DNA from: Ascidia mentula
Taxonomy: Eukaryota > Chordata > Ascidiacea > Phlebobranchia > Ascidiidae
NCBI GenBank assembly: GCA_947561715.1
Contig: OX387202.1
Coordinates: 7,019,001 to 7,083,000 of the forward strand
DNA length: 64,000 bases
Reading direction: 5' to 3'
The notes beneath the pieces were generated by a model. The model did no database searches. It had not been told where the DNA came from and saw nothing but the letters and a program-made list of their open reading frames with translations. This document shows positions 4,015 to 51,700 of this stretch, one piece after another; positions within the stretch are counted from its first letter, which is position 1, and each line of letters opens with the position of its first letter. The position numbers and the translations under genes were made by a program.

Positions 4015-5296
4015 ACGTACATGTTACCATGAATTGATTTATCAAGTTTGTTTATTGCACGAATACACACACAAAGCGTATCTGAAACACGTGATGCGGG
4101 TGGCTAGACAACGTGTGTCATTGTCGTGTGGCGCAAGCGCGGATCTGAAAGAACAATAGGTTGTATTTACAAGGTCACTTGTTCCTTCTATTGTTTCACG
4201 ATTACTAATTTTACGGGATAGATTTTTTTCGTAAAATTAGGTCAGACAATTAACTTGTTGAATTGATTGCATCGTAAACGTTTTAAACGATTTATGTAAG
4301 ACTATCGCCTTTTGTCTCTCTGCGAAAAATTCGTTTCATAGTCTTCATGCGCATATTATTGTTTGCACTTCATACAAGCCCACATACTTTTGTTTTAAAT
4401 ACAAGTATCTTTTCCCCTCCAGGGTCCATTCTTTATTGTGTTGGAAACATATGTGGCGTATGTTAAAGTGCATATGACACGTAAAAATAAAACATGTTAA
4501 TAATCAAACTAAGATATGTTCATAACTTTAGAACATTTTTGGCGAATAAAGTAGCTTGATACGACGACTGGTTTCTGAGATACAGCTGATCAAAGTCGCA
4601 CGTTTGCGAAAGCGAGATATTGTTGCGTGGCGTCAAAGAAGGCGCTTCAGTCGTGCGCGAGTGCTGGCAGCAAACCTTATGCATAGGAATGGAAAACATT
4701 GTAAAACTGGTTTAAGCATAATATTGCATTAAACAGGGGACAAAACGTGAACAAGTGCAATAAACGGATTTTGATGTTAATTTAAGCTGAAGACAGATGG
4801 CCGCTGTTCGACCTATTATGTCTTATTTAGTTGTGTAATAATAAAACAGTTACTGGGACAGGGTGTTCTTGTTGTTACAGCATTTATGATCGCTAACGTG
4901 ATACATGAACTTTTGAAAACACGACAGAGACAAACCGTTAGTTTAGCATTGTCGTTTTGTCCACTCACAGTTATGTCGTTTCTCCTATACCCTCTGGTCT
5001 TCCGCTATTTAGGGACAAATAAGCATTTGATTCGTGACGTCACAATGACAATTTTTTGTGTGATGCAAAACCCTGTCCTGACCTTTAAGGTAACGTAATC
5101 TGTGGATTCTCCTATGTTTGAAACTATTCGATATCTGCAAACAAAGGCGCCTTCTCCTTATCTAAAGAAAAAATAGGACTTGGTTTCAGGAACCACTAAT
5201 TGAGTGATTCATCTCATAACTTTGAACATGTTTTGATATTAAGATTTAATGCAATTCGTACTATTTTCTTACATTTGTTTAGTTGTTGCAACTAAA

Positions 5297-6190
5297 ATGG
5301 CAAGTTATCTCTTTACGGGTGAAGACCTAACAGCTGACTATAATAGATATAGACCTCAGTACGAGGAAGAAGTTGTTAATTATGTGATACAACAAGTTGA
5401 AAAGCAATCTGGACATAAACCGAAATTTCAAGTTATGGTTGATGTTGGTTGTGGAAACGGGCAAGCAACCAGAGGTTTTGCTCCTTATTTTGAAAAAGTT
5501 ATTGCTAGTGACGTCAGCGAGCAGCAAATTAAACATGCAAGAAAACAAAACAAGTATGAACATGTTACATACGAGGTCGGAAAAGCTGAAGAAATTCATG
5601 TAGAAGACAATAGCGTTGATTTGCTACTGTCTGCCACAGCTGCACAATGGTTTGATTTAAAGGCGTTTTTGGCCGAAGCGTCTCGAGTTTTGAAGCAAAG
5701 TGGTATACTCGTACTGCTGGGGTACACAGCACCCAAAATTGCATTGTTACCAAATACGACCCCGAATTCAATGATCGATCTGAAAGAAATGTTCCCAACA
5801 AAAGTCATAGAGGGCTTGATCGGCCAATACGTCACCGAAACCGAAGAAGTGGAAAGCCAATATTCGGGCATATACAAGAAAATTTCTGCTGCGAGCAAGC
5901 ACAGATCTTCTGTAACGCAAATTTGGAGAGATTGGACCATTTCTGATGCAAAGGGTTTTGTGCGATCTTTGGGCTCTTACCCCGATTACATGAATAAAAG
6001 AAAAAGTGAGCTACAAACCGCAAGAGGCATTTTAACTGATCTTGATGTCAAAAATGTAGATCCAGCAGAAATATTGGCAGAAAACCTGAAAAAAGCACTA
6101 TCCTTGAATGATCAAAATGATGACACCATTTCGTTAGAGGCTCATTTTGAAATATTCACGGTCGTGTTCACAGGTCTTATAAAGCAATAG
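5297..6190 (+). CDS. Class I SAM-dependent methyltransferase, copy B
   Basis: A 297-residue, single-exon duplicate of the gene at 1615-2508. I count eight amino-acid differences: V11L, an I/V change after VIASD, K to E before VGKAEE, L/I in KV(L/I)EG, Y/S in HR(Y/S)SV, V/L, I/V, and P/T near the C-terminus. All motifs, including VDVGCGNG, are kept and the frame is intact, so both copies look functional or only recently duplicated. AATAAA follows at 6236-6241. The upstream region is shorter than in copy A because of two deletions of about 200 bp, so the two genes could be expressed differently (inference). The likely role is small-molecule or protein methylation; the substrate is unknown. Confidence 0.9.
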   Translation: MASYLFTGEDLTADYNRYRPQYEEEVVNYVIQQVEKQSGHKPKFQVMVDVGCGNGQATRGFAPYFEKVIASDVSEQQIKHARKQNKYEHVTYEVGKAEEIHVEDNSVDLLLSATAAQWFDLKAFLAEASRVLKQSGILVLLGYTAPKIALLPNTTPNSMIDLKEMFPTKVIEGLIGQYVTETEEVESQYSGIYKKISAASKHRSSVTQIWRDWTISDAKGFVRSLGSYPDYMNKRKSELQTARGILTDLDVKNVDPAEILAENLKKALSLNDQNDDTISLEAHFEIFTVVFTGLIKQ

Positions 6191-26829: not shown

Positions 26830-27119
26830 TATAATATTTTGCAGTTGTCAATTACTAAAGCTTTTAAATTCTAGAAAATAAATGTAACAATATTAATTTT
26901 TCAGAAAAAGCACAATTTTGAATTTAATTACCAATACTTGAATTAACATGTGAAATAGCGTGCCTGACAGCAACAACTAAGCTGTTGTGTGCATTTTTAC
27001 TGTGGCGAATAAGTCTTGATCATATGGAAACTGACAGCAGACACTAAAGCTTGTCTGTTGTGTTTTTTCTAAGTGTGTACAACTAAGCTAGGAAATATGT
27101 GCAAAAGAGCCATAATAAT

Positions 27120-27190
27120 CAATGAGAGCTGCAGACAGGGTGTATACACGCACTGTCTCGACCTGTAAGGTCTCATCAGTGCAGCTGTTG
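27120..27190 (-). ncRNA. Hammerhead ribozyme, copy 1 (core mutated)
   Basis: Same fold as the copy at 27673, read on the minus strand. The core GAAA is changed to GAGA by one substitution (plus position 27157), so it is probably inactive. Stems I, II and III and the C before the cleavage site are kept. Confidence 0.8.
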
Positions 27191-27412
27191 ATGTGGCACT
27201 GTGCTAGCTGGTAGACTAGCAGGCACACAGATTTCCACTTTGTGGTACCTTTCGGCCAATCGTCGATATGTTGGGTACCAAACTAGGTAACAATCAACAC
27301 AGACGAACCACGTGGAGCGCACTATGGCCAAAACAACTGTTTGGGATCCATTAGCGCTATCGGCTCGGCTTTCACCCAAATCATATTATATGCGCAAAAG
27401 AGCCATAATAAT

Positions 27413-27483
27413 CAATGAGAGCTGCAAACAGGGTGTATACACGCACTGTTTCGACCTGTAAGGTCTCATCAGTGCAGCTGTTG
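27413..27483 (-). ncRNA. Hammerhead ribozyme, copy 2
   Basis: Read on the minus strand. CTGATGA and GAAA core boxes are intact, stem II is GACC/GGTC, and stem I is AGCTGCA/TGCAGC with flanking pairs. The nucleotide before the cleavage site is U instead of C, which is allowed (H) but usually slower. Confidence 0.85.
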
Positions 27484-27672
27484 ATGTGGCACTGTGCTAG
27501 CTGGTAGACTAGCAGGCACACAGTTGTTTTGGCCATAGTGCGCTCCACGTGGTTCGTCTGTGTTGATTGCTACCCAACAGTTTGGTACCCAACATATCGA
27601 CGATTGACCGAAAGGTACCACAAAGTGGAAATCTGTGTGCCTGCTAGTCTACCAGCTAGCACAGTGCTACAT

Positions 27673-27743
27673 CAACAGCTGCACTGATGAGACCTTACAG
27701 GTCGAAACAGTGCGTGTATACACCCTGTCTGCAGCTCTCATTG
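27673..27743 (+). ncRNA. Hammerhead ribozyme, copy 3 (intact type I)
   Basis: All parts are present. Stem I: AGCTGCA pairs with TGCAGCT (27730-27736), with a further CAA/TTG pairing beyond an internal loop. Core CTGATGA is at 27684-27690. Stem II: GACC/GGTC with loop TTACA. Core GAAA is at 27704-27707. Stem III: ACAG/CTGT with an inner GTGT/ACAC hairpin. The predicted cleavage is after C27729. The helices open at stem I, so this is type I. Confidence 0.92.
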
Positions 27744-27754
27744 AGCTAGGAAAT

Positions 27755-29530: not shown

Positions 29531-29685
29531 TAACAACTACTCCCCGTCTTCTTTACGCTTTCGCTAGTTATCTCGCATGCGTTTTGTCTTTTTACCTGCA
29601 CTACTTCTTCTAAGTCTCCTTTGTCGCGTAATCGCAGCAATTACCTCTTTGTTTCTGCCTCGACTTTGGTATCTCTCCACAGACC

Positions 29686-30618
29686 GGACCTAGCGGACCT
29701 AGCGGACCTAGCGGACCTAGCGGACCTAGCGGACCTAGCGGACCTAGCGGACCTAGCGGACCTAGCGGACCTAGCGGACCTAGCGGACCTAGCGGACCTA
29801 GCGGACCTAGCGGACCTAGCGGACCTAGCGGACCTAGCGGACCTAGCGGACCTAGCGGACCTAGCGGACCTAGCGGACCTAGCGGACCTAGCGGACCTAG
29901 CGGACCTAGCGGACCTAGCGGACCTAGCGGACCTAGCGGACCTAGCGGACCTAGCGGACCTAGCGGACCTAGCGGACCTAGCGGACCTAGCGGACCCAGC
30001 GGACCTAGCGGACCCAGCGGACCTAGCGGACCCAGCGGACCTAGCGGACCCAGCGGACCTAGCGGACCCAGCGGACCTAGCGGACCCAGCGGACCTAGCG
30101 GACCCAGCGGACCTAGCGGACCCAGCGGACCTAGCGGACCCAGCGGACCTAGCGGACCCAGCGGACCTAGCGGACCCAGCGGACCTAGCGGACCCAGCGG
30201 ACCTAGCGGACCCAGCGGACCTAGCGGACCCAGCGGACCTAGCGGACCCAGCGGACCTAGCGGACCCAGCGGACCTAGCGGACCCAGCGGACCTAGCGGA
30301 CCCAGCGGACCTAGCGGACCCAGCGGACCTAGCGGACCCAGCGCACCTAGCGGACCCAGCGCACCTAGCGGACCCAGCGGACCTAGCGGACCCAGCGGAC
30401 CTAGCGGACCCAGCGGACCTAGCGGACCCAGCGGACCTAGCGGACCCAGCGGACCTAGCGGACCGAGCGGACCTAGCGGACCGAGCGGACCTAGCGGACC
30501 GAGCGGACCTAGCGGACCTAGCGGACCTAGCGGACCTAGCGGACCTAGCGGACCTAGCGGACCTAGCGGACCTAGCGGACCTAGCGGACCTAGCGGACCT
30601 AGCGGACCTAGCGGACCT
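29686..30618. repeat. 9-bp minisatellite, about 104 copies
   Basis: Uninterrupted array of ggacctagc, 933 bp. The first part (29686 to about 29990) and the last part are pure 9-mers. The middle (about 29992-30470) is an 18-bp higher-order unit alternating ggacctagc and ggacccagc, with two gcacctagc variants (about 30342 and 30360) and three gaccgagc variants near 30460-30500. Since 9 is divisible by 3 the array reads as a long Ala-Asp-Leu/Pro frame, which I do not regard as a protein. Confidence 0.97.
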
Positions 30619-30675
30619 GTAGTATTAGAAGGTACCGATCACGCAGTACCACAAACAAATAAACTGACATACAAA

Positions 30676-30800
30676 GTGACACGCACCAACGGTGACATGC
30701 AAAGTGACACGCACCAACGGTGACATGCAAAGTGACACGCACCAACGGTGACATGCAAAGTGACATGCTGAAGTTTTGTGACACGTGAAGTGACATGCTT
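30676..30800. repeat. 28-bp tandem repeat
   Basis: gtgacacgcaccaacggtga recurs at 30676, 30704 and 30732 (period 28), followed by degenerate gtgacatgc/gtgacacg pieces to about 30800. Non-coding. Confidence 0.85.
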
Positions 30801-41449: not shown

Positions 41450-42689
41450 AAGTTCACATTCAGTATTTTGTCAATCAACATTTCACTCAACATGCTTCCT
41501 TCCACAATCGAACCTGGTTTCAAATCTCAGCCGCAAAATGATTCACGGAAAACCTGACTACCAACAAGTCGTTGACGCAGGAGACGTCGACAAAACGAAT
41601 ATTCAACGAATCGCATTATATTGTTCATTTCATCCTGGGAAATTGTAAGGGGGGGAATTCAGTAAAAATTCAGTGGGGTCTTGCTTCTCATTTAAATTAT
41701 AATTAGGGTGACTACAAACGTCTTTAACCAATTGCAAGTATGATGAGAAATCAACGTTGTTCAGTGTAAGATGACAAACTAAGTGACCAATCCTACCTTC
41801 TATCGTTGTTTTACTGGGAAAAACTCAAGGGCGATCTAACAAACTTTGAAGAGCTTGTAACACAGAATTTAACCGGCAGTTATTGTATAAATTTGTAAGA
41901 CCGGCCAAAACTAGCTTGTTTTTAACAATCCAAGTATTTAATTTGTCACTGCAACTGATCGATTCCTGGACAAGCGCAAACACCATCCAAATACGATATC
42001 GTGCAACGTCGAACTCCATCTTATCAATCCCAATTACGTTGTTTACAATTTTTTCTATGGTGAAACATACACACAAACCGCAACTAGACAGATCGCTTTG
42101 ATGTACTAGTGAGTCGGATTTAAAAGAAACATCACGACCGGTTATTGAAACAAAAATCGAAATTAAAAATTTTCTTACTAAAGACCTGAGTTCCTTTCGC
42201 GAACTTCCAGTAGAATCATAAAGAACCATTTCGTTCTCAAAATTTTTAAACCACAAAATCACAAAATGCCCTTCAAAAAGAACTGGAATAAAAACATGCT
42301 CACACAAACGTTCGTTGTGAAACATACCATGAAGTGCTTTGCGAATATTTTTGAATTGTTTGCCCTGCAAAATTTCTCCCGCTGTAATAGTTGACACAAA
42401 CCCAAAGGCGCCGTAAATTACAATAACGGAGTGTTCTGGAAATATAACAATCTAGAACGTTGTCCGTTAACCAACTAATTGTTAAGTCGTTATGTGTTTT
42501 CGCCGGGTTTTGAGTTAAAGCACAATAAGTTTTCCCACGAGGTCTACTGCAAAGGGAACACAAATCTAACCAAGAAACTGACTGACGACAGGGCATGACG
42601 AGGGCGGTGTCAAAAATTGAAGTTGGGGTTAAAGGTATATGATTCCAAACGAAATCTGCAATTTTCTTACAGTCGTAAAAAATTTTCAT
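41450..42689 (-). pseudogene. Ulp1-like C48 protease joined to a USP-like domain (broken)
   Basis: Read leftwards. WLTDNVLDCYI (N-terminal Ulp1 motif) is followed, after a frameshift near 42440, by the catalytic set: GHFVILWF (His), MVLYDSTG (Asp), and HQSDLSSCG (Gln and Cys six residues apart, as in Ulp1). The same frame runs on into GLTNLYNNCRLNSVLQAL, the Cys box of C19 ubiquitin-specific proteases. After a stop and a frame change at about 41825 comes EKQDPTEFLL, like the USP QQD box. The protein would cleave SUMO/ubiquitin-type conjugates. The frameshifts and stop make the present copy non-functional unless unrecognised introns exist. It lies inside the 9.1-kb transposon, downstream of the transposase remnant. 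Confidence 0.75.
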
Positions 42690-42933
42690 TTTGTTTTGGA
42701 CAGTTTGTAAAAATTGTCATCGTCGGGGTGCATTTAAGTGTTGACATTGGTTGTGGAGAAAGTGATTTTTGGTTTTCGTATTTCAAACGTTTACATATGA
42801 TTTCCGAAGAGTAAAAACTAGTTTTGTTTCTTTTCCTCTTTTTAAACTTTGACTCCACAACCAATGTTCGTTTAGCGGTTTTAGTGTTGTTTGGGTTTGA
42901 AGGGGATTTGTTCGGTTTTCCACGAAAGCTCAT
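42667..42933 (-). pseudogene. Basic linker frame of the transposon
   Basis: An 88-codon frame rich in Lys/Arg/Ser (SKFKKRKRNKTSFYS), likely a nuclear-localisation or linker region between the transposase and Ulp1 remnants. It overlaps the ends of both neighbouring frames. No domain recognised. Confidence 0.35.
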
Positions 42934-43618
42934 TAACGAATCGGCAGAGTTTTTCTAAAACTTTAATGGCATCATAGTTTTTCAAAGCAAAATCGTCTAT
43001 TCGAGCTATTCGCTTTCCATCAATTATGTTTCGTTTTAAATCTCGAAAATTTTGCTCAATAATTCCTTGAGTTTTGTTGTTGTGAAGGATTGTTTGGTGG
43101 AGGCAACTCTTTATCACATTGCAATCTTTCGAGTACGTAATAAACATGTTGGCCTGTTCGTTGGTGGATTTACCGTCGTGGAATTGCCGTGACAAATCCC
43201 CAAGCATTATAAGTTATAACTTAGACGTTGAACATATTCTGCTTAAAACCACATCTATCAAACGTTCACATAATTTCGGATTGTAATAGACATTGGCGCC
43301 AATATGTGAGGAAGTTCCAGTGCCAGTGGAATCAAAATACGCAATATCAAACGCGCACACGCGATAAAATTTTTTTATCTGTGCGTCGGAATACATTACC
43401 ACCATAGGAAAATGCGCCGAAATACAACGAATAAATTTTTTATCCATTTTTAGTCGCTGCATATTTAAATTTACAAACCATAAATCGCTTATTCGTTTGC
43501 TGCCACTATGTTCGCATTTAATGTTGTTTAAAACTGATTGTGAAGGCAAATATGTGCAAGCCCCGAACCAACGTTCCTCTGGCAATAATTTGTCAAACAT
43601 ATCGCGATATTGTTTCAC
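42881..43618 (-). pseudogene. Probable DDE-type transposase remnant
   Basis: Two adjacent frames. The upstream one (43618-43214) contains AFDIAYFDSTGTGTS, like the first catalytic Asp strand of MULE/KDZ-type transposases with a D-S/A-T-G motif. The next (43207-42881) contains GIIEQNFRDLKRNI, which resembles the region of the catalytic Glu (E-x2-FR-x-LK). The stretch expected between them, with the second Asp, is too short, so an internal deletion is likely. Attribution is from motif shape only. Confidence 0.45.
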
Positions 43619-43837
43619 TGCAGTTTGATGCTTCTAAATTGTGTATACAGCTGTCAAGGGTGTAGTAAAAGCAGGTAAAAGTGCGACAGGTGAACTTGTT
43701 ACATGCGACTGAAAATCTAGTCCAGAAAACGATGATGGAAACATCTCTTCATCGGTGTCAATCACTCTTTGCTCTCTATTGTTTGTCACAGTTTTATCAC
43801 CACCAACAGCAAAATCATCGGATTTTAATGGCCTATG

Positions 43838-44065
43838 TTATACAAAACAAGATTTCGAGCACAAATCAAATCCAGGACAAACCAAATGCGACCGTTTCCA
43901 TTGATTTTCCGTTAAACCTACAGCGACGGCCGTTTCCTCAAATACACATCTGGGATGAAACCATTGCTGGAAAGATTCACATTCAACCATTAAAGCGCCA
44001 TCATAGGGCGCGTTACAAATACAAAATAAAGCCTCACCGAAAGGCGTTTTGGGCTGTGTGGACAA
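43838..44065 (-). pseudogene. PHD-finger-like module of the transposon
   Basis: A 75-codon frame with LFCICNAP, MVECESFQQWFHPRCV and LVCPGF, the order and spacing of a PHD finger (C-x-C ... C ... W-F-H-x2-C ... C). Two ligand positions are changed: F replaces a Cys after VECES, and F follows CPG. It is therefore degenerate. PHD fingers bind histone H3 tails; in a transposon this could guide integration (inference). Confidence 0.6.
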
Positions 44066-44136
44066 CTTCGGTGATGGTTCGCAACAATTACGTTGTTTGA
44101 AATACGACTGTGCCGTTTTGCGAAATGATTTATCTT

Positions 44137-44766
44137 CTAGCCAAACTTTTTCACTTTCATCCTGTTTTTTTCATTTACTGGAAGTTTGCAATGTTTCAAA
44201 ACTGCTTTTACGGCCTTATTTGGTAGTTTTAACTTGTGGGGGCATTCTTGTAGGCACTCCACTAAAGATGGTAATGTGGCGTAAAACAAATTTTGCTTTT
44301 GGTGACCTGGGCTATGTGGAGAAAGATCAAGACGTTGAATCAATGTGTTTTGTAATTTATGGACTTCACAAAAATTCAGCAACTTTTTAAATCGCCTGTT
44401 AACTTGCATTCCGGTCCAAAGATCTTTGGAACGAAGAAAGTTCAAACGACTTTTCGTGGTAAACTTTTTCAATCGATGTAAACGCAAGTACTTACAAATT
44501 GTGTCAATTTTTTCATTGCAAGTTTTACACCGTGAACCACCGGTGAGGACCAGGCGACAAGACAACTGCACCGGCGTTAATAAAAACAAACCGGGAATAC
44601 CACTATTTGGAATGATTTTCCGAGTTAATCGCTGGACTCCGGAAACAAAACCAAAGCTGCTTAAGGCGAAACAACAAATATACCCAAACCCAACCGAACA
44701 TGTTCGCTTATATACAAGTGACCTTGTCGCCAAGCTGTATGCTGGCAATGGGTTCTTTGCCGTCAC
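44137..44766 (-). CDS. Unrecognised 5' frame of the transposon
   Basis: A 209-codon open frame starting inside the satellite array, so its first ~20 residues are probably not real. The later part has CKTCNEKIDTICKYLRLHR and many Lys/Arg, suggesting a nucleic-acid-binding N-terminal region with Cys pairs. It lies upstream of the PHD-like frame on the same strand. I do not recognise the family. Confidence 0.4.
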   Translation of the reverse strand: MTAKNPLPAYSLATRSLVYKRTCSVGFGYICCFALSSFGFVSGVQRLTRKIIPNSGIPGLFLLTPVQLSCRLVLTGGSRCKTCNEKIDTICKYLRLHRLKKFTTKSRLNFLRSKDLWTGMQVNRRFKKLLNFCEVHKLQNTLIQRLDLSPHSPGHQKQNLFYATLPSLVECLQECPHKLKLPNKAVKAVLKHCKLPVNEKNRMKVKKFG

Positions 44767-45791: not shown

Positions 45792-48700
45792 ATGAAGATT
45801 GTGCTGGTGGTACAGGGTCTGGTTATCGCAACAGCTCTCGCTCTGGTAAGTTTCATATCAGTAAGAAATTAGCTTTGCATGCTAACATGCTATGGGTAAA
45901 CGTAAGCTGGAGCGTAATAAATCAACCGTGTGCTTTGTGAAACGAGATATATTCAATCATGACCAATATGAAAGTTTCCTTTCTGGTTTGGGAGCTAACG
46001 TAGATCTTGTAAGCTTCCACTACTTGGGTAAATACGAATGGAATAAAACAATGTTTGAAACAAAGTGTTTCTGATTACCGTCATTTGGTTTATTTTTTTA
46101 ATTTGTGAAAAATCGAATTCTCGTACAACATACGTCATCATCAGTTTCTGCAAATAAAATGCATTAAAACACTCGAAGTACCTAAAATAACCAAACAAAT
46201 AAAATAAAACTGAAATGGTGAACACAGTGTCCCCTACCATTGCATCTACACAACTGTTAACTTCACTGCAGTGCAAGGCCCTCTAACACAGGAGGCAGAA
46301 AGATAAGAGAGTGCGAATCAAAACCATGACGACCCGCAGCACGAATGCACAACGTCATTGAACAACATTAAAACAATGGTAAAAGATGTTCTCCATCCAT
46401 AAAACACACAACACCAAACAAAACTGCCTGCAACCGCTTACGAATTCGGGGAGAATCATTTTTTAAATTTTTATTGAAACTTGGGTGCGGTTCAGCCATT
46501 TGGCTTCGCACACATCCAGTCCTTTGTCCATAGGCTGTTCCACAAATACCACCGAAAAACAACTTGAAATGCTTATGCGCGTTCCTGTCGGTTGATGCGC
46601 GTTTGCAAAATGATGGCGCAGAGCCGTTTTGTCGTTGCTTCCCAACTTGCCTTTGGTTGAATTCCAAAAATGTCGCCCAAGGAGGGGGGTCGTTTGTAAA
46701 CGATTTGGGCCTGGATCTTTAATTGCCCTTCTTTTTGTGTGAGCTTGAGAACCTGAGGAAATGCTGTACCCCAAGTTCTGTCTTTCGTTGTTGCGGCGCA
46801 AGCGGAATGCTTCACCGAGGACAATCAACTTGTCCTGCAAACGAACTGCAACGACCGTCCTGGTAGCTATAGCTATAGGTATACCCTTGTGGGCGGTTCG
46901 CATTGGGCAGTCACCATGGTAACTACATATCCATGGTTAATGAAACGACAACATTAACAACAAAAGCAGGCAAACAATATAAACTGCTGCAACATGTAAC
47001 GTGTGCGAGTTTCAGCATTGATGTTGCGACGTGCACAACATGTCATGATCAATACGTTGGCAAAACCAAAAATAAATTTTCAACAAGATGGACACAACAC
47101 AGATTGGAATTCAACCAAAGGCAAGTTGGGAAGCAACGACAAGACGGCTCTGCGCCACCATTTTACAAACGCGCACCCATTGGCAGGAACGCGTCTAAGC
47201 ATTTCAAGTTGTTTTGTGGGTTGTGTTTGTAGAACAGTCTATGGCTGAAGGATTGGATGTGTGCGAAGCCAAAATGGCTGAACCGCACCCAAGTTTCAAT
47301 AAACATTAAAAAATGATTCTCCCCGAATTCGTATGCAGTTGCTGGCAGTTTTATTTGGTGTTGTGTTTTATGGATGGAATACATCTTTCACCATTGTTTT
47401 AATGTTGTTCAATGACGTCGTGCGTTCGTGCTGCGGGTCGTCATTGTTTTGATTCGCACTCTCTTATCTTTCTGTCTCCCGTGTTAGAGGGCCTTGCACT
47501 GCAATGGTGTTTGCAGTTGTGTAGATGCAGTGTTAGGGGACATTGTGTTCACCATTTCAGTTTTATTTGTTTGTTTATTTTAGGTACATGTAGCTTCGAG
47601 TGTTTTAATGCATTTTATTTGCAGAAAGTGATGATGACCGATGCTGTAGGCGAAAATCAATTTTTCACAAATTAAAAAATAAACCAACTGGCGGAAATCA
47701 GAAACACTTGGTTTCAAACATTTGATAATTGCTGACGTGTTTTAAGGCTGTGCAACATCAGGGGCTAGATTCTGTCCACATTAAAGATCACGGAATAAAA
47801 CAAAATATTTTTCAGGGTTTGATTCAGATCTTCGTGACCAATGGTAGGAAAATATGAGAATTTATGAGATTGTGAAAGCTGACACTTAAATACAAATGAA
47901 GTTATAATTACTTTAAACAAAGAATTAAATATTACCGGTTTTGTAATAAAAATATTTCCCTTTTTCGTTAAAGATCGCACTTTCAGGTCAACTTACGAAC
48001 AAGTTGCAGGAAATTCAGACCCAACAGACTGACCTGGTGGATATTCAAAGTAAAATATCTTTCTATAGCGCCACCTTTTGGCCTTATCATCGCCACCTAG
48101 TGATTACTAGTGCAGCTATCCAGTTACTGACTACATTAATGACCTTTGTGTATAGAGTATATCTTACAACTTAACTAATACCAGCAAAAAAATACAACTG
48201 AACCATACAAAGAAAACCCGGTGAAGTTTTTTTTACACTTGTGCAAAATTACATGTGAGTGCAGGAAACCGATGAAAACAAAGGGATAGCAGGGGTGCGT
48301 TGCGTGCATAAACAACACAGATAATCAAAGAAAACGTGAAGAAAAGTATCAATATGTGGTTTTCCTCCATACGATGTTGGGAAAAAATTATGTTGTATTT
48401 TTTGAGAAGGTCCGCACAGTAAATAACATCAGGCACTTTATTAATTTCGGTGAATAACACAAAGACGCACTGACCTGGACTAGTCTAAAAAATACCTTGT
48501 TTTGTTTCTTAAGAGTTATATTAGAAAAACATGCATGTTTCCAGGCCAACTTAAAAAAGACAAAAAACAAATCCAAGAAATGCAGACCGATTTCATTGGA
48601 GTTCATGGTAACAAGGGTAATGCTAGTGACATAAAACATGTCAACGTTAACGTAAGTTTTGTTCACAGAGTTGTCGAACAGAGTGGATCAACTGCAAGGT

Positions 48701-51700
48701 CAACTGAGTAACACTTCCAGCAGTTGAGTTTTACTTTATTTAAGTATAAATCTCACATATGTGTCAAATTCTGAAAACCTTTGCCCGTAAGTCACGTCAT
48801 GACTCGCTTCTGCCTCTAGCGGTGTAGATACTTGCGTGCTCACCAATCTACACCACTAGGAGCAGAAGCGAGTCATGACGTGAGTTACGGGCAAAGGTTT
48901 TGGCAAACCCAACATATACGTCATCAGGTGCGACTCAGAGAGGGTTCCATCTGGCACCGGTATAGGTCATAATGCAGGTCGTGCAAATATTGTTGTGTTT
49001 TCACCGCCTACTCGCGTGTGAATGAGTTTAACTCAAATACTTCTGCCAATCTGATGAGTTTTAACCGTCTGCAGATCTTTGGAGGAATCTCATAGATTCT
49101 CTTCCACCGTTTTCCTGTAAAACTTCAGATATTAAAGGTCGCCAACATCTCATAACGGGAGATGAAGTTTACTGTGAAGATGGGTGGCAGGTATTCATAC
49201 TGTGGTAAATATAACAGGGGTGGACAATCCATGGCACCAGCGCTAAGTTGGTTAAGCGAGGTGAATATGCACGCCAAGTAATATACGGTTTCACACTACA
49301 ATGCTTAACCATACGCCCGGGATTGTGTTGTTTATAAAGGTCAGGAAATTACACATGAATGTGAAAAGTCATATATTGACAAAGAGGTCATCTAACTTTT
49401 TTAGACCAATTCACCGAAAATCAGTGTCAAGTGTTTTACTTGATAAATACCAGGTGTTCCAGCGTCGTTATGATGGATCTGTGAGTTTCGATAGAGATTG
49501 GGTGGATTACAAGAATGGGTTTGGGAATCTATCAACAGAATTTTGGATGGGTTTGTATTCCAATAAAGCAATCCTTAACCAAGTACAAATTTTGCAAAAC
49601 TTTGAATAATAGTTTGTTTTAGTTTAAAATGTACCGCTCTTCTGGCATAAAATATACGTGCTGTATTTTACGACGTTTCGTCTGCCATTCAGCGAGACTT
49701 AATCAAGTATTGATACCGCAATTTCAAAGTAAACTACACTAAAACATTTAGGGGCACAAAAAAGAAAAAAGGGCAGGTTGACACAGCTTGTCAGATCACG
49801 TGGCAGAGGCAAAACACGAAACACTGCGGGAGGCGAAACAGTTACAACAAATTGTTATAAACTGCCGGAAAGTAAACACATTGTTCTTTGTCGTTGACGC
49901 ATCCACTGTTTTTGTGAATGTGAAGCGACTCAAAAATGCTAAAATAATCGTTCCTATTCCTGGGCAATAGTCCGCACCATGTAAAAAACTCACGCGAGTT
50001 TGCAGTCGAGGTACGGAGCTTACGAGTGGCGCAACATGGAAGCATGGTATCCTTTAATGTGGTGTCATTGTTCACCAATGTACCGATATCCCTAGCAATC
50101 ACCATTGTTATGGCACGCTTAAAATATACCGGCAGTCACCCGTAAGGATGAAACGCCCACTAGCGGAGCAGTTGTTATTCCCTTCGTCCCTGACCTTAAC
50201 GAAACATTGCGAAGATTGATGTCGGATAGCATTAAAGTCTACACTAAGCCCCATACAACACTTGGCAATCTAATTTCACGACCCATTGCTACGGGGGCTT
50301 CCGAGCCAAAGAGAGTGGTCTATTTAATACCATGCAAATATTGCGATGGTATTTTCATCGGCGAAACCGGAAGGGCCTTTATGATGCGACTGAAAGAGCA
50401 TCGCCGTGATGTCGCATCGAAAAATGCCAGCAAGACTGCGTTGGCCAAGCATGCGGTGACATTGCGACACGAAGTTGCCTTCGATAAACCCCTTTCCAAG
50501 TTCTGAAAAAGGAGTTGGATCACACCAAGCGGCTCTTTCTTGAGTCGCTTCACATTCACAAAAATAGTGGGTGCGTCAACGACAAAGAACACTGTGTTTA
50601 CTTTCCGGCAGTTTATAACAATTTGTTGTAACTGTTGCGCCTCCCGCAGTCTTTCATGTTTTGCCTCTGTCACGTGATCTGACAAGCGGTGTCAACCTGT
50701 CCTTTTTTCTTTTTTCCTGAATGTTTTAGTGCAGTTTACTTTGAAATTGCGGCATCAATACCTGATGAAGTCTCGCTGAATGGCAGACGAAACGTCGTAA
50801 AATACAGCACGTATATTTTATGCCAGAAGAGCAGGACATTTTAAATTGCATTATGACTGGCAGCAACAGGAGTTCCTGGTTTGTTTTACTGAACACATTG
50901 TTATAACTTGTGCACACCCAGTTAAATATACAGGCCTACCAAGCAAAACGTTTCAAGCACGCTACGTAACAATTCTAGAGTCAATATAACAGTATCAGTT
51001 AATCCAATTTAAATTCCAGTGTTTTCAGCAATATTATTGCAACCAACAAATTTTATCAGGTTTGGAGAAACTGCATAAAATCACCAATGCGTCCACTAGA
51101 TGTCGTCTTCGTGTTGACCTTCAGGATTTTTCCGGAGGTCAAGGTTTTGCCGAGTATAGGTGAGACTATGACGTATTTAACGTTTTCAATTTAATGCTTT
51201 TGTTCCAACGATAATTTACCCGATGCTGCCATGTCGTCATAACTAACAAAATCTTAAAAGACATTAGGGGAATACCCCCCTTATTACGTCAGATTCACAA
51301 AATTCGTGTTTTAAGTTTGAAGCAACACAGAATATTCTTGCTGTGTTTCAATGCATTTACTCGGTTCGGAAAAATTATGAAACAAAAAGTTTAGATACCG
51401 CACACACATAGGGATGGTAATCAACTCGTAACGACCCCACATCACCGCTCTTGAGGTTTGCGCGATCGCTTGGTCGCGGATTGCCGGGACCGAGCTCAGT
51501 GGGGCTCGGATTGGGTCGAACGCCACCTTTTTGCGCTTAGAGAATGTGGCTGCAGAAAATTTTCATTCCCTTGATTCCAAATCTTCTGAAGCGTAGGCAT
51601 CTGGAAGACAGTTCAAGCGAAATTAACCACGGCCAAACCGTTTGACAATTGATGGCAGCAATCCAGTGAATATTAGTGCTGTGTTCCGCATCGATATATG

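Follow-up and report, generated by a model that had tools for sequence, protein, structure and literature searches.

The window, that is, the whole stretch of 64,000 nucleotides that was analysed, contains an insertion of 647 bp at 27097-27743, bracketed by perfect 11-bp target duplications. The insertion is made of two arms in opposite orientation that carry hammerhead motifs, and its parts are listed below by window position.

27086..27096, no strand: target-site duplication, left copy, AGCTAGGAAAT, a perfect 11-bp match to the right copy
27097..27523, minus strand: left arm, about 1.46 retrozyme units, with the ribozyme sense on the minus strand
27097..27120, minus strand: terminal 'tail', the stretch from end site A to end site B, which only the left end has
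27127..27186, minus strand: hammerhead copy with a broken core (GAGA), 293 bp from the middle copy
27130..27422, minus strand: one 293-bp unit
27420..27479, minus strand: middle copy, type I hammerhead whose cleavage base, 27427, is U (structural descriptor; hammerhead on folding)
27517..27743, plus strand: right arm, second copy, about 0.77 unit, in the opposite orientation
27677..27736, plus strand: type I hammerhead whose core is complete, with C27729 as the predicted cleavage base (structural descriptor; weak Rfam matches)
27744..27754, no strand: target-site duplication, right copy, AGCTAGGAAAT

The two arms share a 7-bp overlap at the junction, and the strand switch lies at about 27517. 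Units were numbered with 1 as the C of CTGATGA, so that the predicted cleavage falls between 46 and 47. In this numbering, the 3' end of the left arm, where cDNA would start, faces outwards at site B (unit 83 after adjustment for the target duplication), and the 3' end of the right arm faces outwards at site A (unit 60). An earlier note, made from the letters alone, had described an insertion marked by a perfect 11-bp duplication and free of coding sequence. Both descriptions hold: the duplication was found at 27086-27096 and 27744-27754, and no stop-to-stop frame of at least 110 aa is present in 27097-27743, nor, at that frame length, the reverse transcriptase plus GIY-YIG frame that is the coding hallmark of Penelope-like elements (PLEs).

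Other features were observed elsewhere in the window. Near-identical methyltransferase frames, probably a recent duplication, lie about 3.7 kb apart on the plus strand at 1528-2508 and 5243-6190, the Pfam comparison covering the first. On both strands, about 1 kb of short tandem repeat at 29534-30723 can be read through in several frames (LAD, PSG, GPL and RSA repeats). Several short frames on the minus strand at 41825-44170, with one Ulp1-protease (C48) match and one sub-threshold PHD-finger match, are at a guess a decayed DNA transposon.

The CTGATGA cores of the insertion start at 27684 (plus), 27472 (minus) and 27179 (minus), and the two minus cores are 293 bp apart, which confirms the three copies of a type I motif that had been reported, two in the same direction and the third inverted. 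A structural descriptor demanding CTGANGA, stem II, GAA, A15.1-U16.1, stem III, H17 and a 5-bp stem I matched two places in the whole window, the plus copy and the middle minus copy, and had no match in 100 dinucleotide-shuffled windows. Two of the three copies therefore satisfy the full descriptor: the plus copy is intact as had been stated, with cleavage predicted after C27729, and the middle copy was verified to have U at 27427, while the third fails by its mutated core, the GAGA that had already been pointed out. Since the NUH rule permits U at the cleavage position of a hammerhead, the middle copy may be slow rather than dead.

The comparison with Rfam hammerhead models that had been proposed as a check did not support the motif at curated cut-offs, since no match was found at gathering scores anywhere in the window. 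Below threshold, RAGATH-1-hammerhead gave 29.7 bits (cut-off 56.3) and Hammerhead_3 25.8 bits (cut-off 48.5); the best sub-threshold match was MIR7723 (57 of 200), owing to the long inverted repeat. Both minus copies are predicted to fold as hammerheads, with modest stability relative to shuffles (z -1.39 and -1.65), and the minimum-energy fold of the plus copy with its flanks lacks the hammerhead. The 293-bp unit as RNA showed stability above shuffles (z -2.24), with 3 of 200 shuffles equally stable.

Relatives of the element were expected elsewhere in the genome and are present in thousands. A 25-nt ribozyme core, allowing up to 3 mismatches, gave 3,618 matches in the 196-Mb genome (79 contigs), and a reversed-core control pattern gave none. 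Together with the descriptor matches and the target duplication, these relatives support the reading as a retroelement built from type I hammerheads. For further analysis, 100 loci were studied, consisting of the 40 best-scoring against the window element (L009-L048) and 60 others (L072-L131) drawn from the first 100 core places listed, regardless of layout. The latter comprise all C1 places not already in the sample, with neighbours merged, plus the first on C2, and this set required the exact core and was otherwise blind to structure. Pieces up to 45 bp apart were grouped, and the largest group at each locus (main cluster) was used. Comparison of 200-bp flanks led to 18 loci being dropped as duplicates, leaving 82, of which 45 are two-armed; the pair results were identical when 11 duplicates recognised by eye were removed instead of the 18.

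The repeat unit is 293 bp, and arms are unequal, from 20 to 2256 bp (the longest in L028), with several units per arm in L028, L108 and L114. Since L015, L020, L034 and L035 have common flanks and contain from one to three units, arrays also expand or shrink after insertion. The ribozyme sequence is nearly invariant among copies, in a sample where 60 of the 100 loci had been picked by exact core. Among 135 arm 5' ends, counted with 11 duplicates removed and 7 later-recognised duplicates still included, 6 fall on one of the first two bases after the predicted cut; because all 6 belong to the high-scoring set, they are only suggestive of ribozyme cleavage. Several retrozyme subfamilies seem to exist: L073, L102, L121 and L123 diverge from the window unit at about unit 140 and are similar to each other beyond it. 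A different hammerhead fragment with an altered stem II loop (L069:491-584, minus strand), lying beside a palindromic PLE, is possibly another subfamily.

Concerning the layout, the main clusters of the 100 loci are two-armed with outward ends in 54 cases and one-armed in 46, and none is inward. In all 54 two-armed loci the minus arm lies on the left and the plus arm on the right, an order that places the RNA 3' ends, corresponding to the cDNA start, outwards in every copy; the one-armed loci have either the minus arm (28) or the plus arm (18). With 46 of 100 loci one-armed, either a second arm is dispensable or some second arms were too short to be detected. Some one-armed loci are truly two-armed, as in L036, whose second arm is too short for the search; in L033 and L042 a minus arm lies 450-540 bp away. 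When all pieces at any distance were considered, plus-then-minus order was seen in two loci, L040 (gap 274 bp) and L124 (gap 456 bp). The direct-plus-inverted layout that the earlier note had taken as a possible sign of a new family is thus present, but it does not mark one, and the class itself, that of animal non-LTR retrozymes, was already known. Judged from the sampled copies, the layout is the commonest insertion product of this family and is common to the PLEs of the genome, rather than a one-off rearrangement.

The outer ends cluster at two sites, A and B, 27 nt apart. End classes were set at units 45-65 for A and 74-98 for B, limits that were chosen after inspecting the data. Where the duplication is clear, units 54-60 hold 26 of the 33 A ends (mode 57), and units 82-86 hold 28 of the 32 B ends (modes 83 and 84). 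Both outer ends are RNA 3' ends, and they fall at different sites, which goes beyond what had been recognised from the letters. The 27 non-duplicate pairs with a clear target duplication are BA in 15 cases and AB in 11, with no like-ended pair and one unclassed (L123). When all 45 two-armed copies were included, 38 pairs were classable, 35 unlike and 3 like (L029, L038 and L103, none of them with a clear duplication), and 7 had an end outside both classes. Permuting the right ends gave a mean of 19.3 unlike pairs, and the value of 35 was reached in 0 of 200,000 trials. The structure-blind set alone provided 24 pairs, of which 21 are unlike, 1 is alike and 2 are unclassed.

One-armed copies with a clear duplication end at A (7) or B (5), so neither site is rare. 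The coupling of A and B within an insertion, though both are common in one-armed copies, is new. Independently of the sampled loci, a genome-wide search for 24-mers, tolerating 2 mismatches at most, counted 577 occurrences of the one just before A, 402 of the one between A and B and 94 of the one after B, in agreement with two end sites. A hairpin with site B in its loop is predicted in many copies, not in all. A and B were also considered as copies of one half-site motif, a candidate that was dropped (P 0.54 and 0.08).

Target duplications with a score of at least 7 were found at 47 of 100 loci, compared with 3 of 300 mismatched flank pairs whose left and right sides came from different loci. 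At the 39 non-duplicate loci, the duplication length ranges from 8 to 14 bp with a mode of 12 bp (15 of 39), and the duplicated sequence is 79% AT; in L028 and L043 the duplication is an AT repeat whose edges are uncertain. In the 27 two-armed copies, taking both strands, T is found at +2 and +3 past the cut in 39 of 54 and 37 of 54 cases, an enrichment relative to window composition with P of 4e-10 and 1e-8 at positions picked after seeing the counts. The enrichment is weaker at +4 and +5 (P 0.02 and 0.002), and choosing the longest duplication can move a boundary by one or two bases. Since the cut motif is symmetric on both strands, it fits two like nuclease sites.

PLEs are represented in the window by two fragments:

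46879..47232, plus strand: PLE clade 2 fragment, same endonuclease region as the next, no Pfam match of its own
50123..50506, plus strand: PLE clade 1 fragment, GIY-YIG endonuclease region, recognised by likeness to full-length frames, no Pfam match of its own

By this likeness, the fragment at 50123-50506 is a relative of the candidate helper, lying outside the insertion. Genome searches gave at least 150 matches for clade 1 (150 of 801 candidates scored), with open frames up to 841 aa, and at least 150 for clade 2 (150 of 524 candidates scored), with open frames up to 953 aa. Frames of 755, 801 and 841 aa showed weak matches to reverse transcriptase or GIY-YIG models; the Pfam cut-off was reached by 1 of 4 PLE frame matches, the other three missing it by 0.4 to 3.3 bits. 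A protein search gave 2,586 relatives for the PLE protein, and the named organisms among the 120 matches listed are all animals.

Neighbouring endonuclease matches within 6 kb are outward in 15 cases, inward in 1 and on the same strand in 2 for clade 1. For clade 2 the corresponding counts are 14, 0 and 12, the outward pairs being partly non-independent, since 6 of the 14, at C70:3.07-3.60 Mb, resemble copies of one block. The PLE insertions read were L069, L070, L071, the L052 group (a single old insertion, present in duplicated blocks), L132/L133, L134/L135, L136/L137 and L138-L141 (clade 2), chosen for long frames or as retrievable pairs and covering 3 of 10 chosen pairs. All 8 head-to-head insertions with both ends read have one shorter and one longer end, and 7 of the 8 are flanked by a 10-14-bp duplication; the L132/L133 stretch ends too early to show one. 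The longer end carries an extra piece of about 30 nt in clade 1 and an extra 77 nt of putative PLE sequence in the clade 2 copy L138-L141. L069 forms a palindrome of 4.6 kb at 99.7% identity, in which the 755-aa frame is open on both strands.

Comparison of the retrozyme tail with PLE tails showed no clear similarity in 8 comparisons (lowest uncorrected P 0.013 and 0.049). The retrozyme unit showed no convincing similarity to three full-length PLE loci or to clade 2 PLE ends, and the match of L069 to the unit falls outside the PLE, as a separate retrozyme-like fragment. Larger PLE arrays were also observed. At C52:9243976-9259650, a clade 2 palindromic array with 953-aa frames has three minus then three plus copies at 3493-bp spacing per arm, a shape that matches the multi-unit retrozyme array L028. 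At C70:19.9-21.0 Mb and C52:19.9-20.5 Mb, many clade 1 endonuclease fragments lie on one strand, as if in satellite-like blocks.

The family, the layout, the two end sites and their coupling, the duplication, the cut motif and the likeness to the PLE layout are read directly in the DNA. With these in hand, the insertion at 27097-27743 is very probably an animal-type non-LTR retrozyme placed by the host's Penelope-type machinery through two-site priming. Since retrozyme copies end two-sidedly like the PLEs of this genome, PLEs would be the machinery that moves them; we infer this help, which PLE protein would give in trans, from co-occurrence and from the way the copies are inserted. The PLE-like insertion signature that this retrozyme is read to bear is new.

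In the proposed mechanism, paired GIY-YIG endonuclease sites would make a staggered cut of about 12 nt in AT-rich DNA, and each free 3' end would prime a separate cDNA, with retrozyme RNA, probably a circle or a multimer, as the template. One cDNA would start at site A, about 11 nt past the cleavage site, and the other at B, 27 nt further. The two cDNAs would then meet head to head and join, giving unequal inverted arms with outward 3' ends, one tailed and one untailed, and a duplication of about 12 bp. Arms of up to 2256 bp (L028) would suggest a circular or multimeric template, multi-unit arms being weak evidence for a circle because the unit number changes after insertion. The coupling of A and B may reflect either a dimer holding one RNA across both sites or fixed site preferences of the first and second strands. 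A broader proposal, to which we give even chances, is that Penelope-type integration is a coupled two-ended reaction of an enzyme dimer that would cut both strands and begin a cDNA on each, obligatorily using two different, adjacent start sites on the template RNA, both of which retrozymes, as non-coding parasites, would mimic; every two-armed copy would then be the fossil of one such reaction. Against the favoured explanation stand the three like-ended pairs among 38, the lack of clear tail similarity between retrozyme and PLE and, in the available text of PMC11167929, an in vitro reaction with no start-site difference between strands.

The alternative that survives best keeps the Penelope-type machinery and has two cDNAs made on separate RNAs in a fixed order, one strand using B and the other A, with no dimer. 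This is a possible, if somewhat doubtful, reading: it predicts the same A-B coupling, genome sequence cannot separate it from the one-RNA version, and no decisive point stands against it. Self-priming, as suggested in the accessible part of PMC3846280 for inverted PLE copies, would have a single cDNA fold back and copy itself. Palindromes at PLE junctions were noted in the same source, and here 26 of the 45 two-armed copies have arms that share 1 bp or more where they meet (in 17 a gap separates the arms and 2 show neither, as raw counts). Like ends would be expected from such snap-back, whereas 26 of the 27 pairs with a clear duplication are unlike and none is alike, and we consider it unlikely.

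L1-style twin priming, with LINE machinery and a second DNA end that primes internally so that the 5' part is inverted, also yields an inverted and a direct arm within one target duplication. In that process the second strand can prime anywhere inside the RNA, whereas the outer ends observed here are confined to A and B (26 of 33 at 54-60 and 28 of 32 at 82-86) and the T-rich motif lies past the cut on both strands, so this explanation appears very unlikely. Read from these copies, the counts are explained better by two independent cDNA starts, one for each nicked strand, than by self-priming or LINE twin priming. Insertions that were separate or nested, or a DNA transposon of the foldback type, are scarcely credible as the source of the inverted arms, which resemble terminal inverted repeats and, in L040 and L124, stand in plus-then-minus order as chance neighbours would, since inward and outward pairs should then be equally frequent (0 versus 54 were seen in main clusters), a single duplication brackets both arms, and the arms are unequal and can be multi-unit (L028, L108).

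Two-site priming by Penelope-type machinery, with its coupling of A and B, would address two questions, namely what moves animal retrozymes and how head-to-head, one-tailed PLEs arise. The genome offers thousands of small, readable retrozyme copies alongside PLEs with long open frames, and the A-B coupling is a sequence signature that can be searched for in any retrozyme-bearing genome, so that both questions become biochemically testable.

Compared with known systems, the element agrees with animal non-LTR retrozymes, as presented in the available text of PMC7229834, in the type I hammerhead, a unit within 150-450 bp (293 here), tandem copies, no LTR seen, thousands of copies and the presence of PLEs in the genome; target duplications are given there as >4 bp and are 8-14 bp here. 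That source describes tandem repeats, and the words 'inverted' and 'head-to-head' are absent from its main text, whereas in our sample the form seen most often is the two-armed outward insertion with two end sites. PLEs as likely helpers of animal retrozymes were put forward from co-occurrence and shared features in the accessible parts of PMC7229834 and PMC7761336. Among the open-licence papers listed by literature searches, no title or opening of an abstract connects retrozymes with head-to-head insertion or with the end sites of PLEs. Plant LTR retrozymes, according to the same available text of PMC7229834, are likewise non-autonomous, hammerhead-bearing and thought to move via circular RNA, but have type III hammerheads, LTRs and 4-bp duplications instead of type I and 11 bp.

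For PLEs, the part of PMC11167929 at hand reports that purified PLE protein cuts and extends both strands, prefers 5'-ATT-3' and begins cDNA in vitro at two internal sites past the hammerhead. In the portion of PMC3846280 available, inverted PLE copies are mostly head-to-head and one of the inverted ends may carry a 31-bp tail, and inverted pLTRs and short 3' extensions are mentioned in that of PMC8969392; since both describe such ends, the one-sided PLE tail is not new. The retrozyme resembles PLEs, as far as the available PMC11167929 and PMC3846280 texts describe them, in the head-to-head layout, a one-sided tail, a pair of cDNA start sites past the hammerhead, short duplications, a T-rich cut motif and both tandem and palindromic arrays. 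Unlike PLEs, it carries no reverse transcriptase/endonuclease frame and its tail is not clearly similar to theirs, and its hammerhead has a longer stem III than the minimal PLE hammerhead. SINEs are short non-coding elements that parasitise LINE enzymes. If the coupled reaction is true, retrozymes would be to PLEs what SINEs are to LINEs, with the differences that the helper would be a PLE and that both DNA ends would prime.
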